NCBI RefSeq assembly: GCF_004571065.1
Contig: NZ_SPQN01000047.1
Coordinates: forward strand, 1 to 35,919
Source: Geodermatophilus sp. DF01-2
GTDB taxonomy: Bacteria > Actinomycetota > Actinomycetes > Mycobacteriales > Geodermatophilaceae
DNA length: 35,919 bases
Direction of reading: 5' to 3'
The notes beneath the pieces were generated by a model that saw only the letters and a list, made by a program, of their open reading frames with translations, was not told the origin of the DNA and made no database searches. Both the position numbers and the translations under genes were made by a program. How positions within the stretch are numbered: position 1 is the stretch's first letter; each line of letters starts with the position of its first letter. Shown piece after piece: positions 10,603-23,294 of the stretch.

Positions 10603-11493
10603 ATGATCACGGTCAGCGGACTGACCAAGAGGTACGGCGACCGGACGGTCGTCGACGCCGTCTCGTTCGAGCTGGAGCCGGGCACGGTGACCGGCTTCCT
10701 GGGGCCGAACGGCGCCGGCAAGACCACGACGATGCGGATGGTCACCGGCCTGGTGCCGGCGACGTCCGGGCAGGCGCTGGTCGGCGGCCGGCCCTATCCC
10801 TCGCTGCCCAACCCGGGTGCGGTGATGGGCACGCTGCTCGACGCCGGCGCCGTGCACCCTGGCCGGACCGGACGCACCCACCTGCGCATCCTCGCCGCGA
10901 CGGTCGGCGTGGCCGACCGTCGGGTCGACGAGGTGCTGTCGCTCGTCGGGCTCTCCGACGCGGCCGGCCAGCGGATCGGCGGCTACTCGCTGGGCATGCG
11001 GCAGCGGCTCGGCATCGCCGCGGCGCTGCTGGCCGACCCGCCGGTGCTCATGTTCGACGAGCCCGCCAACGGGCTGGACCCCGAGGGCATCCGATGGATG
11101 CGCGACCTGCTGCGCGGGCACGCGGCGCGCGGCGGCACGGTGCTGCTGTCGTCGCACCTGCTGGGCGAGGTCGAGCACACCGTCGACCGGCTGGTCGTGA
11201 TCGGCGGCGGTCGGGTCGTAGCCGACGGCCCGATCGCCGCGCTGCTGGGCACCGACGGCACCGCGGTGCGCGCGGTCGACGTCCCGGCGTTCGCTACCGC
11301 CCTGGAGGCCGCGAGGTTCCACGTGCAACACCGCGACGACGGCGCGCTGCTCGTCGCCGGTGCCGACCCCGCCGCCGTCGGCGCGGTGGCCGCCGCGGGC
11401 GGTCACGTGCTGACCGACCTGCGTCCCCTCGAGCACGGGCTCGAGGACCTCTTCTTCTCCCTCACCGCTCCCGAGAGGACGTCCCTCCGATGA
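10603..11493 (+). CDS. ABC-2 type exporter ATP-binding protein
   Basis: A 296-residue ATPase of the DrrA/bacitracin-resistance class. It shows Walker A GPNGAGKTT, the variant signature YSLGMRQRLGIAAALL, Walker B VLMFDEPANGLDP and the switch His in LLSSHLLGEVEHTVDRL. The C-terminal 80 residues (from AVRAVDVPAF) form the small regulatory tail of this class. GGAGGAGG precedes the ATG. It is divergent from the kinase gene and overlaps the permease gene by ATGA, so the two make one operon. Substrate may be a peptide antibiotic or a lipid; the adjacent two-component system probably controls it. Confidence 0.92.
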   Translation: MITVSGLTKRYGDRTVVDAVSFELEPGTVTGFLGPNGAGKTTTMRMVTGLVPATSGQALVGGRPYPSLPNPGAVMGTLLDAGAVHPGRTGRTHLRILAATVGVADRRVDEVLSLVGLSDAAGQRIGGYSLGMRQRLGIAAALLADPPVLMFDEPANGLDPEGIRWMRDLLRGHAARGGTVLLSSHLLGEVEHTVDRLVVIGGGRVVADGPIAALLGTDGTAVRAVDVPAFATALEAARFHVQHRDDGALLVAGADPAAVGAVAAAGGHVLTDLRPLEHGLEDLFFSLTAPERTSLR

Positions 11494-12242
11494 CCGTCAC
11501 CGTCTCTTCCCTCCCTGCTCCCGGGACCGCGCGCCCGGCGGCCCCGTCGACCGGCACGCTGACCGGGCTGGAGGTCCGCAAGTCGCTGTCCACCCGCTCC
11601 GGCCGGGCGGTGGCGACGGCGGCCGTCGTCCTCGGGCCGCTGGGGGTGGTGCTGGCCAGCCTGACCGGGGAGGGCACCTTCCCCGCGGCCGTCGCGCTCG
11701 GCTTCATCGGCATGCTCACCGCGCTGGTCCTGCTGGCGCTCGGCGTGCTGTCGACGGCGGGGGAATGGACGCACAAGAGCGTGCAGACCATGTTCCTCCT
11801 CGTGCCGCAGCGCGGGCGGGTGCTGCTGGCCAAGGCGCTGGCACTCGCGCTGCAGGGCGCGGTGCTCGCCGCGCTCGGGGCGGGGCTGTCCCTGGCGCTG
11901 CTGTGGCTGATCCCCGACCCGGTGGCCTGGACGGCGGCCGGGCCCGCGGTGGTGGTGGCCGTCGCGGCTGGTGCGGCGTTCGCGGTGATCGGCGCCGGGA
12001 TCGGTGCGGCACTGGGCAACTCGCCGGCCGCGCTGACCGGCGCCTACCTGACGATGCTCGGCGTGCTTCCGGTGCTGCAGGCGGTCAAGCCTGAGTGGGC
12101 CGAGAAGCTGGACCCGGCGACGGCGATCGTGACGATGGCGCAGTCGGGGGTGACGACGACGCCGGTGCTGGTGATCGCCGGGTGGGTCGTCGTGGCGTCG
12201 GTGGCCGGCTGGGTCCTGACCTCCCGCCGCGCGGTCCAGTAG
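11490..12242 (+). CDS. ABC-2 type exporter permease
   Basis: A 250-residue integral membrane protein with about six hydrophobic segments (for example AVVLGPLGVVLASLTG, AVALGFIGMLTALVLLALGV and VLVIAGWVVVASVAGWVL). The segment GEWTHKSVQTMFLLVPQRGRVLLAKALA is typical of ABC-2 permeases paired with DrrA-like ATPases. The ATG at 11490 overlaps the ATPase stop codon; the longer open frame upstream is only antisense-free space inside the ATPase gene. It ends with TAG, showing that UAG also serves as an ordinary stop here when no SECIS-like hairpin with a GGUC loop follows. Confidence 0.88.
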   Translation: MTVTVSSLPAPGTARPAAPSTGTLTGLEVRKSLSTRSGRAVATAAVVLGPLGVVLASLTGEGTFPAAVALGFIGMLTALVLLALGVLSTAGEWTHKSVQTMFLLVPQRGRVLLAKALALALQGAVLAALGAGLSLALLWLIPDPVAWTAAGPAVVVAVAAGAAFAVIGAGIGAALGNSPAALTGAYLTMLGVLPVLQAVKPEWAEKLDPATAIVTMAQSGVTTTPVLVIAGWVVVASVAGWVLTSRRAVQ

Positions 12243-12436: not shown

Positions 12437-13096
12437 ATGGACTCCCCCGACCTGCTGGCCCTGCGCTCCGACGAGCGCGCCGCCCTCGTGCTCCTCGGCC
12501 TGCGCGGCGACTGGTAGCCGTACTGCTGCGCCCAGGCGGTCCGCCTGGCCCGATCCCTGTCCCGCCTCGCCGACGCCGGTGCGGAGGTGGTGCTGACCTC
12601 CACCGACCCGCCGGAGGTTCAGCTGGCGATGAACCGCACCTGGCACCTGCCCTACCGCTGGGTCAGCGACCCCGACGGCACGCGGTTGGCCAAGCCGCTC
12701 GGCGCCTGGGACGAGGGCGCGTCGATCTTCCGACCGGTCGTCGTCGTGGTGGCCCCGGACGGCAGGGAGGTGTTCCACGAGCTGTCCCGGGACTTCACCG
12801 ACCGTCCGGACGACGAGCCGATCCTGGCCGCCGTCGAGGCGCTCGGACTCGACCCGGTGCCGGCGCCCGCGCCGTGGGATCCCCCGGACACCGGGCCGCG
12901 GCCGTCGAAGCGGGCCTTCCAGCCGTCGTCGTTCATCCCCTACTTCCGCGCGATCAAGTTCAACACCGGCGCACTCGCCGAGCGGATGTTCGACGCGCGT
13001 GACCGCGAGCAGCTGCTCACCGAGCAGCACATGGCCGAGTCGTTCCTCGCGGCCTTCGACGAGTGGCGCGCTGAGCACCCCCCGGATCGCCAGTGA
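12437..13096 (+). CDS. Thioredoxin-fold/peroxiredoxin-like protein with UAG at the redox Cys position (putative selenoprotein)
   Basis: Reading through codon 27 (TAG, 12515-12517) gives 219 residues. Residues 1-26 end in VLLGLRGDW; after the TAG comes PYCCAQAVRLARSL. AhpC/TSA-like proteins have RG.WCPYC at this point, so the stop replaces the first Cys of a CxxC, giving UxxC. The downstream frame is intact and family-like: VVLTSTDPPEVQLAMN, then VSDPDGTRLAKPLG and IFRPVVVVVAPDGREV, with a 60-residue C-terminal extension. A SECIS-like hairpin follows the TAG. UAG-directed selenocysteine is known in Geodermatophilus and Blastococcus. Role: probably a thiol or peroxide oxidoreductase. The alternative, a nonsense-mutated gene, fits less well because position and hairpin agree with Sec. 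Confidence 0.8.
12515..12548 (+). promoter_or_regulatory. UAG selenocysteine codon and bacterial-type SECIS hairpin
   Basis: Fourteen nt after the TAG a 17-nt minihelix forms: CCAGGC (12532-12537), loop GGUCC (12538-12542), GCCUGG (12543-12548). The E. coli fdhF SECIS also has a 17-nt minihelix, 11 nt after its UGA, with GGUCU at the apex, where SelB binds. Here the loop differs in one base. The upper stem lacks the bulged U of fdhF. The hairpin lies within the coding frame, as bacterial SECIS elements do. Confidence 0.7.
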
Positions 13097-13257
13097 GACA
13101 GCAGCCGCAGGGGCACGCCACAAGCGCCTGGCTGGCGACGCTCGACACGGCGGCGCCGACGGACGTGACCCACGACGACGCACTCGCTGCACTGGACGCG
13201 GCCCGGGAGGAGCCCACGACGCGATGGCCTGGACCGAGCGTGACATCCCTGACCTGA
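13093..13257 (+). CDS. Possible small protein, 54 residues, overlapping both neighbours
   Basis: A GTG at 13093 overlaps the selenoprotein stop (GTGA), and the frame runs to TGA at 13255-13257, overlapping the SDR by 34 bases. The product would read MRQQPQGHATSAWLATLDTA, later DVTHDDALAALDAAREE. Codon third positions are mostly G or C, as in real genes here. No family is recognised. It may be a coupled small protein, the remnant of a longer gene, or chance; there is no ribosome-binding site apart from coupling. Confidence 0.25.
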   Translation: MRQQPQGHATSAWLATLDTAAPTDVTHDDALAALDAAREEPTTRWPGPSVTSLT

Positions 13258-14165
13258 CCGGGCGCACCGCGGTGGTGACGGGCGCGAACGGCGGGCTCGG
13301 CCTGCAGACGGCGCTGGCGCTGGCCGGTGCGGGTGCGCACGTGGTTCTCGCTGCCCGTGACCCGGAGAAGACGGCGGCCGCGGAGGCGCGGATCCGGGTG
13401 AGCTCCCCGTCGGCGTCCCTGGAGGTGGTGCCGCTGGACCTCGGCGACCTGTCGTCCGTGTCGGCCGCCGCGCGGACGGTGCTGGACGGGCGCGACCGCG
13501 TGGACATCCTGGTGAACAACGCCGGGGTCATGGCGATGCCGCAGCGGACGACGGTCGACGGGTTCGAGATGCAGCTCGGCGTCAACCACCTGGGGCACTG
13601 GGCGCTGACCGCGCACCTCTTGCCGGCGCTGCTGGCCGCACCGGCCGCGCGAGTGGTGACGGTGACGAGCACGGCGCGGCACCGGGCGCGGCGGCTGGAC
13701 CCGGCCGACGTCCACCTGCAGCGGGGTTACGGAGCGTGGAGCGCGTACGCGCGGTCGAAGATGGCGAACCTGCACTTCGGGCTGGGGCTGCAGCAGCGGT
13801 TCGCCGCGGCCGGCGTTCCGGCTTCGAGTCTGTTGGCTCACCCGGGCCTGACGAACACCGACCTGCAGGCGCGGGCGGTGCGGGAGGGCGGCGCCGGTTG
13901 GGTAGGGGCGTTCTTCGAGGTGATGACGGCGCGGTCGGGCATGTCGCCGTTCGAGGGCGCCCGGCCGCAGTTGCGGGCCGCGACCGACCCGCGGGCGCGT
14001 GGCGGTGAGCTGTACGCGCCGCGGTACGGCTCCCACGGCCCAGCCGTGCGGCGGCCGATCCTGCGCCGGCACCGCCTGCAGGAGAAGATCGACGTGCTGT
14101 GGGAGGTCTCCGAACGCGAGACCGGCCTCCCCCTGAATGTCGAGGCCGCCCGCTCCGCCCCGTGA
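13224..14165 (+). CDS. Short-chain dehydrogenase/reductase (retinol dehydrogenase-like)
   Basis: A 313-residue SDR. It has the NAD(P) motif VVTGANGGLGLQTALALA, the NNAG strand in DILVNNAGVMAMP, the LGVNHLGHWALTAHLLP helix, catalytic Ser in VVTVTSTARHRA, and YARSKMANLHF with catalytic Tyr and Lys (YxxxK appears as Y-A-R-S-K). Length and the GFEMQLGVNHLGHF-type segment match the group annotated as oxidoreductase/retinol dehydrogenase-like in actinobacteria. The ATG at 13224 follows GGGAGGAG. Substrate unknown. The next 160 bases (14166-14325) hold no convincing gene. Confidence 0.9.
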   Translation: MAWTERDIPDLTGRTAVVTGANGGLGLQTALALAGAGAHVVLAARDPEKTAAAEARIRVSSPSASLEVVPLDLGDLSSVSAAARTVLDGRDRVDILVNNAGVMAMPQRTTVDGFEMQLGVNHLGHWALTAHLLPALLAAPAARVVTVTSTARHRARRLDPADVHLQRGYGAWSAYARSKMANLHFGLGLQQRFAAAGVPASSLLAHPGLTNTDLQARAVREGGAGWVGAFFEVMTARSGMSPFEGARPQLRAATDPRARGGELYAPRYGSHGPAVRRPILRRHRLQEKIDVLWEVSERETGLPLNVEAARSAP

Positions 14166-14325: not shown

Positions 14326-14934
14326 ATGATCTCGGACCAAGGTGGGCGTCGCTCACGTCTCAGGCTGGCGCCGGCCAGCACCGCCCTCGTCCTGGCCGAC
14401 CTTTCATCCCTAGCCCCAAGAATCCGGACGGCGAATGATGTCGTTGACAGCCTGGAGTTGTCTCGTGATCTAGTGGAGCGAACACTCTTAGCGGACCGTG
14501 AGGCTGGTGAGGTGGTGGATGTGGATCTTCGGTTCTACGGGGGTTTCCTCGCCCACGACGGAACTGCCACGACGCAGTACTCGCTGCTGCGGCGACACAT
14601 TGGAGGAATTCAAGGATTGCGACACGGTATTCGCTTGAACCCCTTGGCGGTTACGGCACTTGCTTGTCGCCCATCTGCGCGCATTCTTGGGACGTATCGA
14701 GACGGCAGGCAGCGAATGGTCGACCAGATGTTGGCTCAGGATGCTCACTTCCTGGCGGGTCGATACGAGATGCTGGGCATTATAGCCGATGATGAGGATT
14801 ACTTCCCGGCCGTCTTGGCGCTAGGCGCTGAAGGGGCGAGTCCCATTCGTTGGCTCCGGCAACGGACCAGTGGACGCAACGACGCCCACCTGACAGGTAC
14901 TCGCGTGACCACCCTAACGGATGTGCAATGGTGA
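14326..14934 (+). CDS. NYN/PIN-like nuclease domain protein
   Basis: A 202-residue protein whose order of motifs suits the NYN (PIN-like) nuclease fold: LVLADLSSL with Asp25 after a beta strand, VDVDLRFYGGFLAHDG, then QRMVDQMLAQDAHF with Asp133 and Asp139, then LGIIADDEDYFPAVLALGAEG (Asp155, Asp156, Asp158), resembling the SDDSDF.P motif of NYN proteins. These acidic residues would bind the metal for RNA cleavage. Base composition is about 55 % GC in a sampled line, with codons such as TTA that are rare in the neighbours, so it is probably acquired. It overlaps the NTPase gene by 7 bases. Assigned by motif reading, not by search. Confidence 0.6.
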   Translation: MISDQGGRRSRLRLAPASTALVLADLSSLAPRIRTANDVVDSLELSRDLVERTLLADREAGEVVDVDLRFYGGFLAHDGTATTQYSLLRRHIGGIQGLRHGIRLNPLAVTALACRPSARILGTYRDGRQRMVDQMLAQDAHFLAGRYEMLGIIADDEDYFPAVLALGAEGASPIRWLRQRTSGRNDAHLTGTRVTTLTDVQW

Positions 14935-17252
14935 ACATAACTCAAGGCTCCCGCCAAGATGGTGAAGCTCAAAATTTGACCGGTTCGCAGGAGTCGGAGT
15001 CTCTTGGTAGACTAAGGATGGACCTCGCGGCCTTCGCCGATCCTGGCACCCGCGTGTCCTTCTCCCCTGTCCGCGAAAATGTCGTCCGAGCCACGTGGGA
15101 CGAGGACGGCCGATCTCGAAGCGCAAGGTTTCGCCTTGACGAGAGCGGACCGACACATGCACGTTTCGACGAAGAAGCGGAGCAGCTGTACCGAAGCTTC
15201 CTAGCCGGGCAGGGCATGGGAAACCTTCGCGCTCTCGCGCGAAACATTCTACAGGTCATTCCAGAATTTCCAGGCTTCATTCCGTCCCTGGGGCGTCTGG
15301 AAGGTGTTGCCCCAACCGACGGGGACGCGGCAGCTCTTCTTCTCGCGGCGGCTGAGTCGTCGCCCGACTTCACGAACGTGGTCTTTGTTGCAGCGGATGC
15401 CGGGCTCGGTAAAACTGTGTTGTTGAAGCAGGTAGTGCGCGACCAAGCCCGCCGGTATCTGGCGGGCGAGGTGACGTCGCTGTGGCTATACGTCGATGCG
15501 CAAGCTCGTCGACTGGCGGCCTTGGACGAAGCGATGGCCGGTGAACTGGACCGAATTCGGGCCAAATTCTCCTATGACGCAGCTGTACCTTTGGTTCGCA
15601 CAGGTGCCTTGACCCTCGTAGTCGATGGTTTCGATGAGCTCATTGGCAGCGTGGGGGCTTACGATGAGGCCTTCAACAGCTTGGCCGACTTTATTGGTGG
15701 ACTAGAGGGCGGCGGGACGCTCGTGGCGGCTGCCCGGAGTGCGTACTACGAACAGGAATTCCTCGCACGCGTAGGGCGTGGCCTTGGACGGGGCGAACGC
15801 TGGCGCGTCCGACCTTTACGCCTAAAAGAATGGGGGCCAACTCAGCGTAAGGCACTTGTGCTTGGTGAGGCTGATCGTCGGGGTCTCGGCATCGAGACCG
15901 GGGAGCGAGCCTATCTGCAAGTTGAGGAAGCGCTCGCTGGTGGAGAGCTAGCAGGAGTTGCCGGTAAGCCGTTCTTTGTTGATCGAACAGCTGATCTCAT
16001 CCTCGATGGCGGCATCACCCCCGAAGGAGCGAGGGGTGGTCTGCTTGATCGGCTCGTAAATGCCTACCTTGAGCGCGACGCAGGAAAGCTGCTATCGGCG
16101 GCAAAGTCTCCCCTCCTCAGTGTCGATGCTCTTCGCTCCTTCTTCGATGAGCTTGCATTTGAGATGTGGCGTCAAGAGACGCGGGAGCTTAGTCGTGCCT
16201 CCGTCCGAGAGTTGGCGTCACTGCTCGGCGAAATGGAAGGTTTGGACGAGGACGGTGTCCGAGAAGTGGCGACCCGCGCCCCGTATCTCGCCATGCTTAG
16301 AGAGGGGTCGCTTCCCGGAAGTGTGGGTTGGGAGCATGATGTGTACTTCGCGCACTTCCTTTCACGCCCGCTCTCCGAAGGAATGGAGGATGGCGATGCG
16401 CGGAAGTTGGCTCGCTTGCTCCGACGGGGCAGGTTGCCCGAGGAAGCAGCCCTGCTGGCTGGGAAGTTGACCCATGAAATTCCCAGCCAAGGTCTTATCG
16501 ATCTTCTTGCGGCGGCGGTTCTGAGCGAAGACATCGACATGGACCGTGTACGACGGAATGCCGGCCTTTTGGCAGGCGGACGACTCGCGGGAGAGCGGCA
16601 TGAGGGCCTTCGGCTTCACGGACTCCGGGTCGGAGACATTTCCCTCGGATCCGCCGAATTTGTTGCATGCATGCTTGACGGTCTGGATCTCGGTGGGACG
16701 GATTTGACTGGCACTCGTTTCCTGAGCTGCGAAGCGATCACTCCGTGCCTGTTTCAAAGAGTTGTAGTGGCACCTTCTTCGACAGTGCTCGAGATCGGCG
16801 ACATTCCGGTCGATGCATTCCAAGGCGTGATCTTGCGCGGAGATGCGAGTGACCGTTGGTTGTACTCGCCTAATGAAATTAGAGACACACTCAACGCGTG
16901 TGGCCTGCCAGCTGCTGCTCCGGAACTGACGACCCGAAGGGTGGACCCGGCAGTATTGAACCTTCTTGAGCGTGTGTGCAAAGTGTTTGCGCATACGAAC
17001 TTTGTGGCTGAGGCTGCGGATAATGACTTCACTGTCGTTACGCGCGATGGCGCATGGCCTTTCCTCCGGAAAGCGTTGATCGACTCCGGGCTCGTTGTGC
17101 CGCGCGTGAGGCAGGCGAGTGGGCACAAGACGTTTCTGGAACGGACCGTGCCGCCCGCTATAATCATGGCCGGACTGGATGTGGATGCAACGGTGCCGTC
17201 CGAGGTGGCCGCCTTTTGGGAACGGCTAGAGACGGACTCGATGTCTGGTTAG
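14928..17252 (+). CDS. NACHT/STAND-type NTPase with pentapeptide-like repeats
   Basis: A 774-residue multidomain protein. Residues about 140-300 form a P-loop NTPase: Walker A ADAGLGKTVLLKQ with Lys162-Thr163, and Walker B LTLVVDGFDEL with Asp233, Asp236 and Glu237, the D-x-x-DE form typical of NACHT modules. The segment WEHDVYFAHFLSR near residue 475 resembles the winged-helix end of NACHT proteins. A stretch near 560-605 (LRLHGLRVGDISLGSAEF, LDGLDLGGTDLTGTRF) resembles pentapeptide repeats, a possible ligand-sensing solenoid. ATG 14928 overlaps the NYN gene and is preferred to the in-frame extension to 14850. Bacterial NACHT proteins act against phage. Here the NYN protein would be the effector. 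Low GC suggests transfer. Confidence 0.7.
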   Translation: MVNITQGSRQDGEAQNLTGSQESESLGRLRMDLAAFADPGTRVSFSPVRENVVRATWDEDGRSRSARFRLDESGPTHARFDEEAEQLYRSFLAGQGMGNLRALARNILQVIPEFPGFIPSLGRLEGVAPTDGDAAALLLAAAESSPDFTNVVFVAADAGLGKTVLLKQVVRDQARRYLAGEVTSLWLYVDAQARRLAALDEAMAGELDRIRAKFSYDAAVPLVRTGALTLVVDGFDELIGSVGAYDEAFNSLADFIGGLEGGGTLVAAARSAYYEQEFLARVGRGLGRGERWRVRPLRLKEWGPTQRKALVLGEADRRGLGIETGERAYLQVEEALAGGELAGVAGKPFFVDRTADLILDGGITPEGARGGLLDRLVNAYLERDAGKLLSAAKSPLLSVDALRSFFDELAFEMWRQETRELSRASVRELASLLGEMEGLDEDGVREVATRAPYLAMLREGSLPGSVGWEHDVYFAHFLSRPLSEGMEDGDARKLARLLRRGRLPEEAALLAGKLTHEIPSQGLIDLLAAAVLSEDIDMDRVRRNAGLLAGGRLAGERHEGLRLHGLRVGDISLGSAEFVACMLDGLDLGGTDLTGTRFLSCEAITPCLFQRVVVAPSSTVLEIGDIPVDAFQGVILRGDASDRWLYSPNEIRDTLNACGLPAAAPELTTRRVDPAVLNLLERVCKVFAHTNFVAEAADNDFTVVTRDGAWPFLRKALIDSGLVVPRVRQASGHKTFLERTVPPAIIMAGLDVDATVPSEVAAFWERLETDSMSG

Positions 17253-21825: not shown

Positions 21826-23294
21826 CTGTCGCGGTTTCCTTCGTGGCCTTCGGCGGCGAGCCGCGCCTCCTGGCCGGTGGTGCGGTCGACGGACGACGGG
21901 TCGAAGCTGGGGTCGTCGCCCAGGGCCGCGCCCTCGCCCCGCTCCCGTCCGTAGCCCCCCTCGGTCAGCAGGGCGTTCTTCATCTCCGCCGGTGCGACCG
22001 CGTGGGCCACGTGCCAGCCGACGACGACGACGATCGAGCCGAGCGCGATGCCGCCCAGCACGAACGTGTCGCTGAAGACCATCGTGACGTTGCCGATGGC
22101 GATGATGATGCCTGCGGCCAGCGGAACGAGGTTGATCGGATTGGCGAAGTCGACCCGGTTCTCCTTCCAGATCTTGGCCCCGAGCAGGCCGATCATCCCG
22201 TAGAGCACGACGGTGATCCCACCGAGCACGCCGCCCGGGATGATGTTGATCAGCGCGCCGAACTTCGGGCACAGCCCGAGCAGGATCGCCACGATCGCCG
22301 CGACGTAGTAGGCCGCGGTCGAGTAGACGCGGGTCGCGGCCATGACGCCGATGTTCTCGGCGTAGGTCGTCGTCGGGGAGCCGCCGACCGAGGTGGCGAT
22401 CACGGTGCCGACGCCGTCGGCGAACACCGCCCGGCCCATGACCGGGTCGAGGTCGCGCTTGGTCATCTCGGCGACCGCCTTGACGTGCCCGGCGTTCTCG
22501 GCGACCAGGGCGATCACGGCGGGCAGCGCGAGCAGGGCGAAGTTGATCGAGAAGGTGGGGGCGGTGAAGTTCGGGAGCCCGATCCAGTCGGCCTCGGCGA
22601 CGGCGGCGAAGTCGAGCCGGTCGCGGGTCACGATCTCGCCGGTGCCGTCCGGCGAGGTGATCGGCCCGGCCGTGGCGTCGAGCAGGATCGACAGCAGGTA
22701 TCCGAACACCAGGCCCAGCAGGATCGAGATGCGAGCCCAGAAGCCGCGCAGCAGCAGCGAGGCCACGATGACGAACGACATGGTGGCCAGGGCGACCCAC
22801 TGGTCCTGCGGCCAGTAGACGCCCGCGACCACCGGTGCGAGGTTGAAGCCGATCAGCATGACCACCGCGCCGGTGACCGCGGGCGGGAGCACCTTGTTCA
22901 AGGCCCGGACACCGATGAAGTGGACGAGCAGGCCGACCAGCGCGAGCACCACACCGGCGACCAGGATGGCCCCGACGACGGCGCTCGAGTCCCCACCTGC
23001 CGCGCGGATGGCCACGACCGAGCCCACGAAGGCCGCACTCGTGCCCAGATAGCTGGGTACCTTCCCCTGGACGATGAGCAGGAAGATGATCGTCGCGACC
23101 CCGCTCATCATGATCGCCAGGTTGGCGTCGAGCCCCATGATCAGCGGGAAGACGAACGTGGCGCCGAACATCGCCACCACGTGCTGCGCGCCGATGCCGA
23201 TGGTGCGCGGCCACGACAACCGTTCGTCGGGGGCGACGGCCTCGCCCAGCGGCGGGGTCTTGCCGTCCCCGTAGAGCTTCCAGCCGAACGCCAT
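21822..23294 (-). CDS. NCS2 uracil/xanthine permease
   Basis: A 490-residue transporter of the nucleobase-cation symporter 2 family (UraA, RutG, UacT). The start KLYGDGKTPPLGEAVAPDERLSWPRT is typical of the UraA/RutG branch. IGIGAQHVVAMFGATFVFPL is helix 1, ALVAENAGHVKAV holds the substrate-binding Glu of helix 8, and SVGGSPTTTYAENIGV is the helix 10 motif. About 14 hydrophobic segments are present. The ATG at 23294 follows GAGGAGG. First gene of the hydroxylase operon, it probably imports the substrate, which from its branch is more likely uracil or a related pyrimidine than a purine. Confidence 0.92.
   Translation of the reverse strand: MAFGWKLYGDGKTPPLGEAVAPDERLSWPRTIGIGAQHVVAMFGATFVFPLIMGLDANLAIMMSGVATIIFLLIVQGKVPSYLGTSAAFVGSVVAIRAAGGDSSAVVGAILVAGVVLALVGLLVHFIGVRALNKVLPPAVTGAVVMLIGFNLAPVVAGVYWPQDQWVALATMSFVIVASLLLRGFWARISILLGLVFGYLLSILLDATAGPITSPDGTGEIVTRDRLDFAAVAEADWIGLPNFTAPTFSINFALLALPAVIALVAENAGHVKAVAEMTKRDLDPVMGRAVFADGVGTVIATSVGGSPTTTYAENIGVMAATRVYSTAAYYVAAIVAILLGLCPKFGALINIIPGGVLGGITVVLYGMIGLLGAKIWKENRVDFANPINLVPLAAGIIIAIGNVTMVFSDTFVLGGIALGSIVVVVGWHVAHAVAPAEMKNALLTEGGYGRERGEGAALGDDPSFDPSSVDRTTGQEARLAAEGHEGNRDR

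Follow-up and report, generated by a model that had tools for sequence, protein, structure and literature searches.

A peroxiredoxin-like gene interrupted by a single TAG codon

The window analysed here is a stretch of 35,919 nucleotides (contig NZ_SPQN01000047.1 of assembly GCF_004571065.1) from Geodermatophilus sp. DF01-2, whose genome (G000) is a 4.45-Mb draft, 99.68% complete, within a genus group to which Geodermatophilus chilensis B12 and Geodermatophilus sp. DSM 45219 also belong by genome. Its forward strand carries at 12437-13096 a frame running from an ATG at 12437 to a TGA at 13094-13096, with a TAG at codon 27 (12515-12517) as the sole interruption; on read-through, with codon 27 taken as selenocysteine (Sec), it would encode a peroxiredoxin-like (AhpC/TSA) selenoprotein of 219 residues. 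The TAG occupies the first Cys position of RGDWCPYCC and is the putative Sec codon for the first residue of a UxxC motif (RGDW-U-PYCC). After a spacer of 14 nt (12518-12531), a SECIS-like hairpin of 17 nt follows on the same strand (12532-12548; CCAGGC-GGUCC-GCCUGG). The original prediction, made from the sequence alone, had described both elements, a TAG on the first Cys of a redox motif in an otherwise open frame and a 17-nt minihelix 14 nt past it, and both were confirmed. It also took TAG to be the plain stop of an ABC permease gene in the window; a TAG does end the open reading frame at 11094-12242, but the permease identity is weak, as its part at 11490-12242 scored 18.7 bits against the ABC-2 permease model (cut-off 27.2).

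The read-through protein scored above the cut-off of Pfam family PF00578 (AhpC-TSA; 47.7 bits, cut-off 26) and below that of the SelL-related redox protein model NF040769 (17.1 bits, cut-off 120), and a profile search of solved structures gave no match at a threshold of 0.001. An AlphaFold model obtained with 13 orthologues as input had a mean pLDDT of 86.6 and a pTM of 0.84, and the 50 Foldseek matches shown for it were all of the peroxiredoxin type by title (BCP/PrxQ, AhpC, AhpE and both 1-Cys and 2-Cys peroxiredoxins), with identities of 15-24% and TM-scores by query length of 0.42-0.52. The model contains two long C-terminal helices (163-183 and 187-213), which probably lie outside the matched region because most of the Foldseek alignments span 123-141 columns. 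When the protein was aligned to the PrxQ-like homologue L095, Cys30 fell on the cysteine of its PGC sequence, residue 27 being three residues upstream of Cys30.

Regarding the neighbourhood, the gene is followed by a short-chain dehydrogenase gene (13224-14165), and a dehydrogenase of this kind (66-90% identity) was detected in the 3-kb flanks of 6 of 16 named relatives, either after the gene (L009, L010 and L012) or before it on the other strand (L011, L013 and L024). Further along, the NACHT domain model was matched weakly (27.0 bits, cut-off 26.7) by an 800-codon frame (14850-17252), and a 92-nt tRNA-Ala (GGC) of odd length, possibly a false call, was reported by ARAGORN at 21842-21933 within long open frames.

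Conservation of the codon and of the hairpin

Orthologues with at least 71% identity over the main match were found in 30 of the 112 Geodermatophilaceae genomes; the 16 named actinobacterial loci are among these 30 and were counted once, and a 17th locus from Azospirillum (30% identity, with Cys at the site) was excluded from the TAG count. All 30 carry TAG at codon 27, which is thus not peculiar to one strain. The frame downstream of the TAG is intact in 28 of them, all with the same 14-nt spacer, and the other two, G104 and G029, which were recovered as pieces of the frame, have lost one base of the spacer that separates TAG and hairpin. The deletion is identical in Modestobacter sp. DSM 44400 and Blastococcus sp. 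CT_GayMR19 (L022/L023 = L055/L056), with the remaining frame intact, and this shared change could be a sequencing error, a recent loss or something odder.

Codons +5 to +11 after the TAG, which comprise the hairpin, read GCC CAG GCG GTC CGC/CGT CTG GCC in the 28 intact orthologues and are otherwise invariant. The sole variation, CGC to CGU at codon +9, is one-sided and keeps the pair (G-C to G-U), and no two-sided compensatory change was found among the 28. Among the 61 columns that hold a single amino acid with four or six synonymous codons, the codon was invariant in 5 of the 6 that lie in the hairpin and in 2 of the other 55 (p=2e-5 by Fisher's test, an approximate value as the sequences are related). 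At codon +9, CGG is absent, although it accounts for 283 of the 584 Arg codons in the rest of the gene, more than any other. In raw synonymous diversity the hairpin region was the lowest of 188 windows of eight codons; a second region, about 152 codons past the TAG, showed equally low diversity, slightly lower than that of the hairpin once corrected for amino acid. Folding energy was also compared with that of 200 shuffled sequences, of which 90 did as well as the 46 nt counted from the TAG (z = 0.05) and 12 as well as the 24-nt core (z = -1.63), and no Rfam family was detected in the window at gathering scores. As judged from these alignments, the synonymous conservation of the hairpin is evidence for selection beyond the protein sequence, and its energy alone is no evidence.

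The bacterial SECIS is a hairpin located shortly after the Sec codon and topped by a GGUC-type apex; that of Escherichia coli fdhF is a 17-nt minihelix with an apical GGUC in the loop GGUCU, a spacer of 11 nt and a bulged U, and serves a UGA codon. The hairpin of the window has the same length and the same apical GGUC, but differs in its 14-nt spacer, its GGUCC loop, the absence of a bulged U and the UAG codon that it follows. An energy near that of the shuffles over 46 nt, together with the lack of compensatory changes, would also fit Sec being inserted through some other signal, with the synonymous fixation produced by something else, e.g. an overlapping element. This explanation is nevertheless very unlikely, given that the hairpin resembles in position and GGUC apex the one past the Sec codon of the FDH gene of the same genome (see below) and that only the pair-keeping codons CGC and CGU are used at codon +9 (28/28), compared with 49% of the Arg codons in the rest of the gene.

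The terminal stop of the 28 intact orthologues is TAG in 14 and TGA in 14, and therefore in half of them TAG would be both a stop and a Sec codon within one message, which provides an internal control. Outside the family, the order sample (397 genomes) yielded a single orthologue, 53% identical, in a genome of another family (G133), which reads RGDF-TGA-PFCC, with TGA at codon 27 and the same 14-nt spacer, and whose tRNA-Sec has the anticodon UCA. Among the 24 genomes of the family of G133, this genome alone matched at 1e-10. In a class sample (394 genomes from the larger group, at 1e-15 and with at most seven candidates scored per genome), only G000 and G023 matched, and a plasmid search with the gene returned two Azospirillum records of about 28% identity.

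Cysteine was found at the codon-27 site in some distant homologues, with RGSWCPYC in L087, L096, L099 and L100 and RGDWCPYCC in Azospirillum sp. B506 (L025), the latter not being an unbiased control because the pattern set that found it contained this motif. The aligned PrxQ-like paralogues lack the motif. The aligned Cys homologues, L025 included, stop near residue 140, and none of the genomes searched yielded a close orthologue with Cys at this codon. Seven distant homologues with one TGA or one TAG (L087-L093) were also examined as putative further selenoproteins and rejected, since the stop lies where their conserved part finishes and looks like an ordinary gene end; WCPYC is present in L087, and the other six are PrxQ-like proteins without it.

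A true stop at the TAG, leaving a pseudogene or two short open reading frames, the downstream one starting at a GTG at 12587, is even less probable than a signal other than the hairpin. An open frame from 12587 does exist, and the frameshift of two orthologues would fit such decay, but the TAG is kept throughout the family orthologues found, with both conserved frames intact around it in 28 of them, the codons on its two sides form a peroxiredoxin-like motif, and the only orthologue with a different codon has UGA.

tRNA-Sec(CUA) and the sel genes

In the genome of the window, an Rfam tRNA-Sec match of 66.6 bits (gathering score 47) was detected on contig C133 at 113623-113714 (L001), with the anticodon CTA (CUA) as read by ARAGORN under the label tRNA-Pyl. 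This tRNA is flanked by selA (415.5 bits, cut-off 267.9) on one side and selD (387.4 bits, cut-off 125) on the other, and selB (269.6 bits, cut-off 242.25) is located on the same contig at 110997-112040, so that the tRNA-Sec(CUA) and the three sel genes named as a check in the original prediction are all present above curated cut-offs. Seven other tRNA-Sec matches of this genome, one of them above the gathering score (48.8 bits), were discarded as ordinary Ser, Tyr, Leu, Thr or Met tRNAs. As a separate observation, the tRNA-Pyl label was also given by ARAGORN at 22 further CUA loci, which makes it an annotation trap.

In the family, tRNA-Sec was found in 108 of the 112 genomes, and the anticodons of all 110 matches were read: CUA is present in 101 genomes, one of which (G059) has both anticodons and is counted here, and UCA only in seven (genera g5, g6 and g7). 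No tRNA-Sec was found in the other four genomes, which are 72-82% complete. All 30 genomes carrying the peroxiredoxin-like gene have a tRNA-Sec(CUA). A suppressor tRNA that reads the UAG as pyrrolysine or as one of the standard amino acids, to which the tRNA-Pyl label would point, is the least probable of the alternatives considered, since the CUA tRNA exceeds the tRNA-Sec gathering score, lies between selA and selD and is similar to the UCA tRNA-Sec of genome G070, and since the same codon is UGA in the orthologue of a UCA genome and Cys in some distant homologues.

FDH as a second gene

FDH genes were found with PF00384 and examined in nine genomes. In that of the window's genome (contig C101), the sequence around an in-frame TAG reads ENQARI-U-HSATVPGLG, and a hairpin (GGTCCCC-GGTCT-GGGGACC) follows 11 nt after this codon. 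When in-frame stops were counted, one TAG was found in each of the six CUA genomes, whereas of the UCA genomes G133 and G070 had one TGA each and G072 had five in its matched stretch. The context of the Sec site was recognised by pattern in 6 of 8 loci, with TAG in G000, G023, G104, G061 and G059 and TGA in G133; G029 contributed to the counts only, the TGA context was seen in G072, and that of G070 was not matched by the pattern. Thus, the recognised sites have TAG in five of five CUA genomes and TGA in the one UCA genome. In a wider search with TIGR01591 (1e-80; 97 of the 112 genomes), the FDH-like proteins were almost all free of stops and none had a TAG, with one TGA each in G071, G073 and G074, of genus g7, whose readable tRNA-Sec is UCA. 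Thus, in FDH as in the peroxiredoxin-like gene, two unrelated genes, the Sec codon tracks the anticodon. As far as these comparisons indicate, UAG is not obligatory at the Sec site, where the codon is apparently UAG or UGA depending on the tRNA-Sec of the genome.

A genome with two tRNA-Sec anticodons

Genome G059, from the genus group of the window's genome, has, besides its tRNA-Sec(CUA), a second tRNA-Sec with the anticodon UCA (81.8 bits, contig C17), located at one end of a low-GC island of 5 kb (62% GC) that is flanked on either side by transposase-type genes (L118:1173-5323). The gene adjoining this tRNA is AhpD-like and peroxidase-related, scoring 112.4 bits against TIGR01926 (cut-off 81.8), and has an in-frame TGA at the U of CFYU; against the NCBIfam model AhpD_rel_CFYUT, whose name holds this motif, it scored 51.6 bits, below the cut-off of 175. 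A second gene of the island with an in-frame TGA had neither a family nor a plasmid match, and the hairpins after both TGAs were not exceptional in energy compared to shuffles. The genome encodes one SelB above the cut-off, with a second match below it, and carries the FDH with TAG.

The rest of contig C17 was similar to another contig of G059 (C11) in GC and tetramers (correlation 0.78-0.88), a measure that is not sharp, as G133, from another family, gave 0.78 and the window 0.71 in the same comparison; because of this lack of sharpness, contamination could also be the source of C17. What G059 offers is a lead towards the use of two Sec codons by a single genome, not a demonstration of it. 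Among the titles and abstract openings listed, none reports two Sec codons in one genome, although Mukai et al. (2016) may discuss it. A broader reading, possible but rather doubtful, is that this peroxiredoxin subfamily is an obligate selenoprotein whose Sec codon has switched between UGA and UAG along with the anticodon, and that at least one genome of the Geodermatophilus group, G059, uses both codons with a single recognisable SelB.

Relation to known selenoproteins and proposed mechanism

A selenoprotein AhpC with a UAG Sec codon and a predicted bSECIS was reported by Santesmasses et al. (2017; PMC5330540) for Blastococcus saxobsidens DD2, so the claim of the original prediction that the client is new is not supported. 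The genome of another strain of this species, DSM 44509, has eight PF00578 matches, seven of them above the cut-off, and the only one bearing a TAG is the orthologue of the gene of the window (L018); because of this, the published DD2 AhpC is very probably the same gene. The two share the AhpC type, the UAG Sec codon, the predicted SECIS, the tRNA-Sec(CUA) and the family, whereas the gene described here is the orthologue of the Geodermatophilus group, 74% identical to that of DSM 44509 (G008/L018). The same article cites Mukai et al. (2016) for the UAG selenoproteins FDH and UGSC of Geodermatophilus and Blastococcus. The present system is like that one in its tRNA-Sec(CUA) and in the TAG-containing FDH of the same genome, but its client is a peroxiredoxin-like protein. 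Thiol:disulfide oxidoreductase selenoproteins that are peroxiredoxin-like, belong to PF00578 and have the UxxC motif are tabulated in PMC13188914; as far as that table goes, they share family and motif with the protein of the window and differ from it in being encoded with UGA and in the absence of some 75 extra residues, predicted here as helices. The UAG-Sec code, and very probably the protein itself, is thus known from close relatives, and the client protein is very probably not new.

UAG-directed Sec insertion is strongly supported because the genome has a tRNA-Sec(CUA), selA, selB, selD and an FDH with TAG, the TAG is present in 30 of 30 family orthologues, the orthologue of a UCA genome has UGA and some distant homologues have Cys. 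With high confidence, on these comparative grounds, the gene may be taken to encode a peroxiredoxin-like thiol oxidoreductase in which Sec, inserted at UAG, would be the first residue of a CxxC-type motif, and the UAG-Sec mechanism with a SECIS is very likely the one advanced in the original prediction. In Geodermatophilus and Blastococcus, work by Mukai in 2016 is said to have proved UAG-directed Sec by 75Se or mass spectrometry.

For charging, SelB binding, Sec insertion and catalysis we infer the following course. SelA and SelD would produce Sec-tRNA on the tRNA-Sec(CUA), and SelB would deliver it to the ribosome while binding the GGUC-topped hairpin directly past the UAG. A UAG marked in this way would outcompete release factor 1, and UAGs without a hairpin would still terminate. 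In the protein, the attack on the substrate, a peroxide or a disulfide, would most likely come from Sec27 and the resolution from Cys30, although the roles could be reversed.

These data add one more actinobacterial genome with a UAG-encoded selenoprotein, in a gene that routine annotation would probably truncate or miss. Genome G059 makes it possible to test whether a single cell can use both Sec codons. The presence of the same Sec site as TAG or TGA according to the anticodon, in two genes, would represent a clean natural codon switch for one amino acid.
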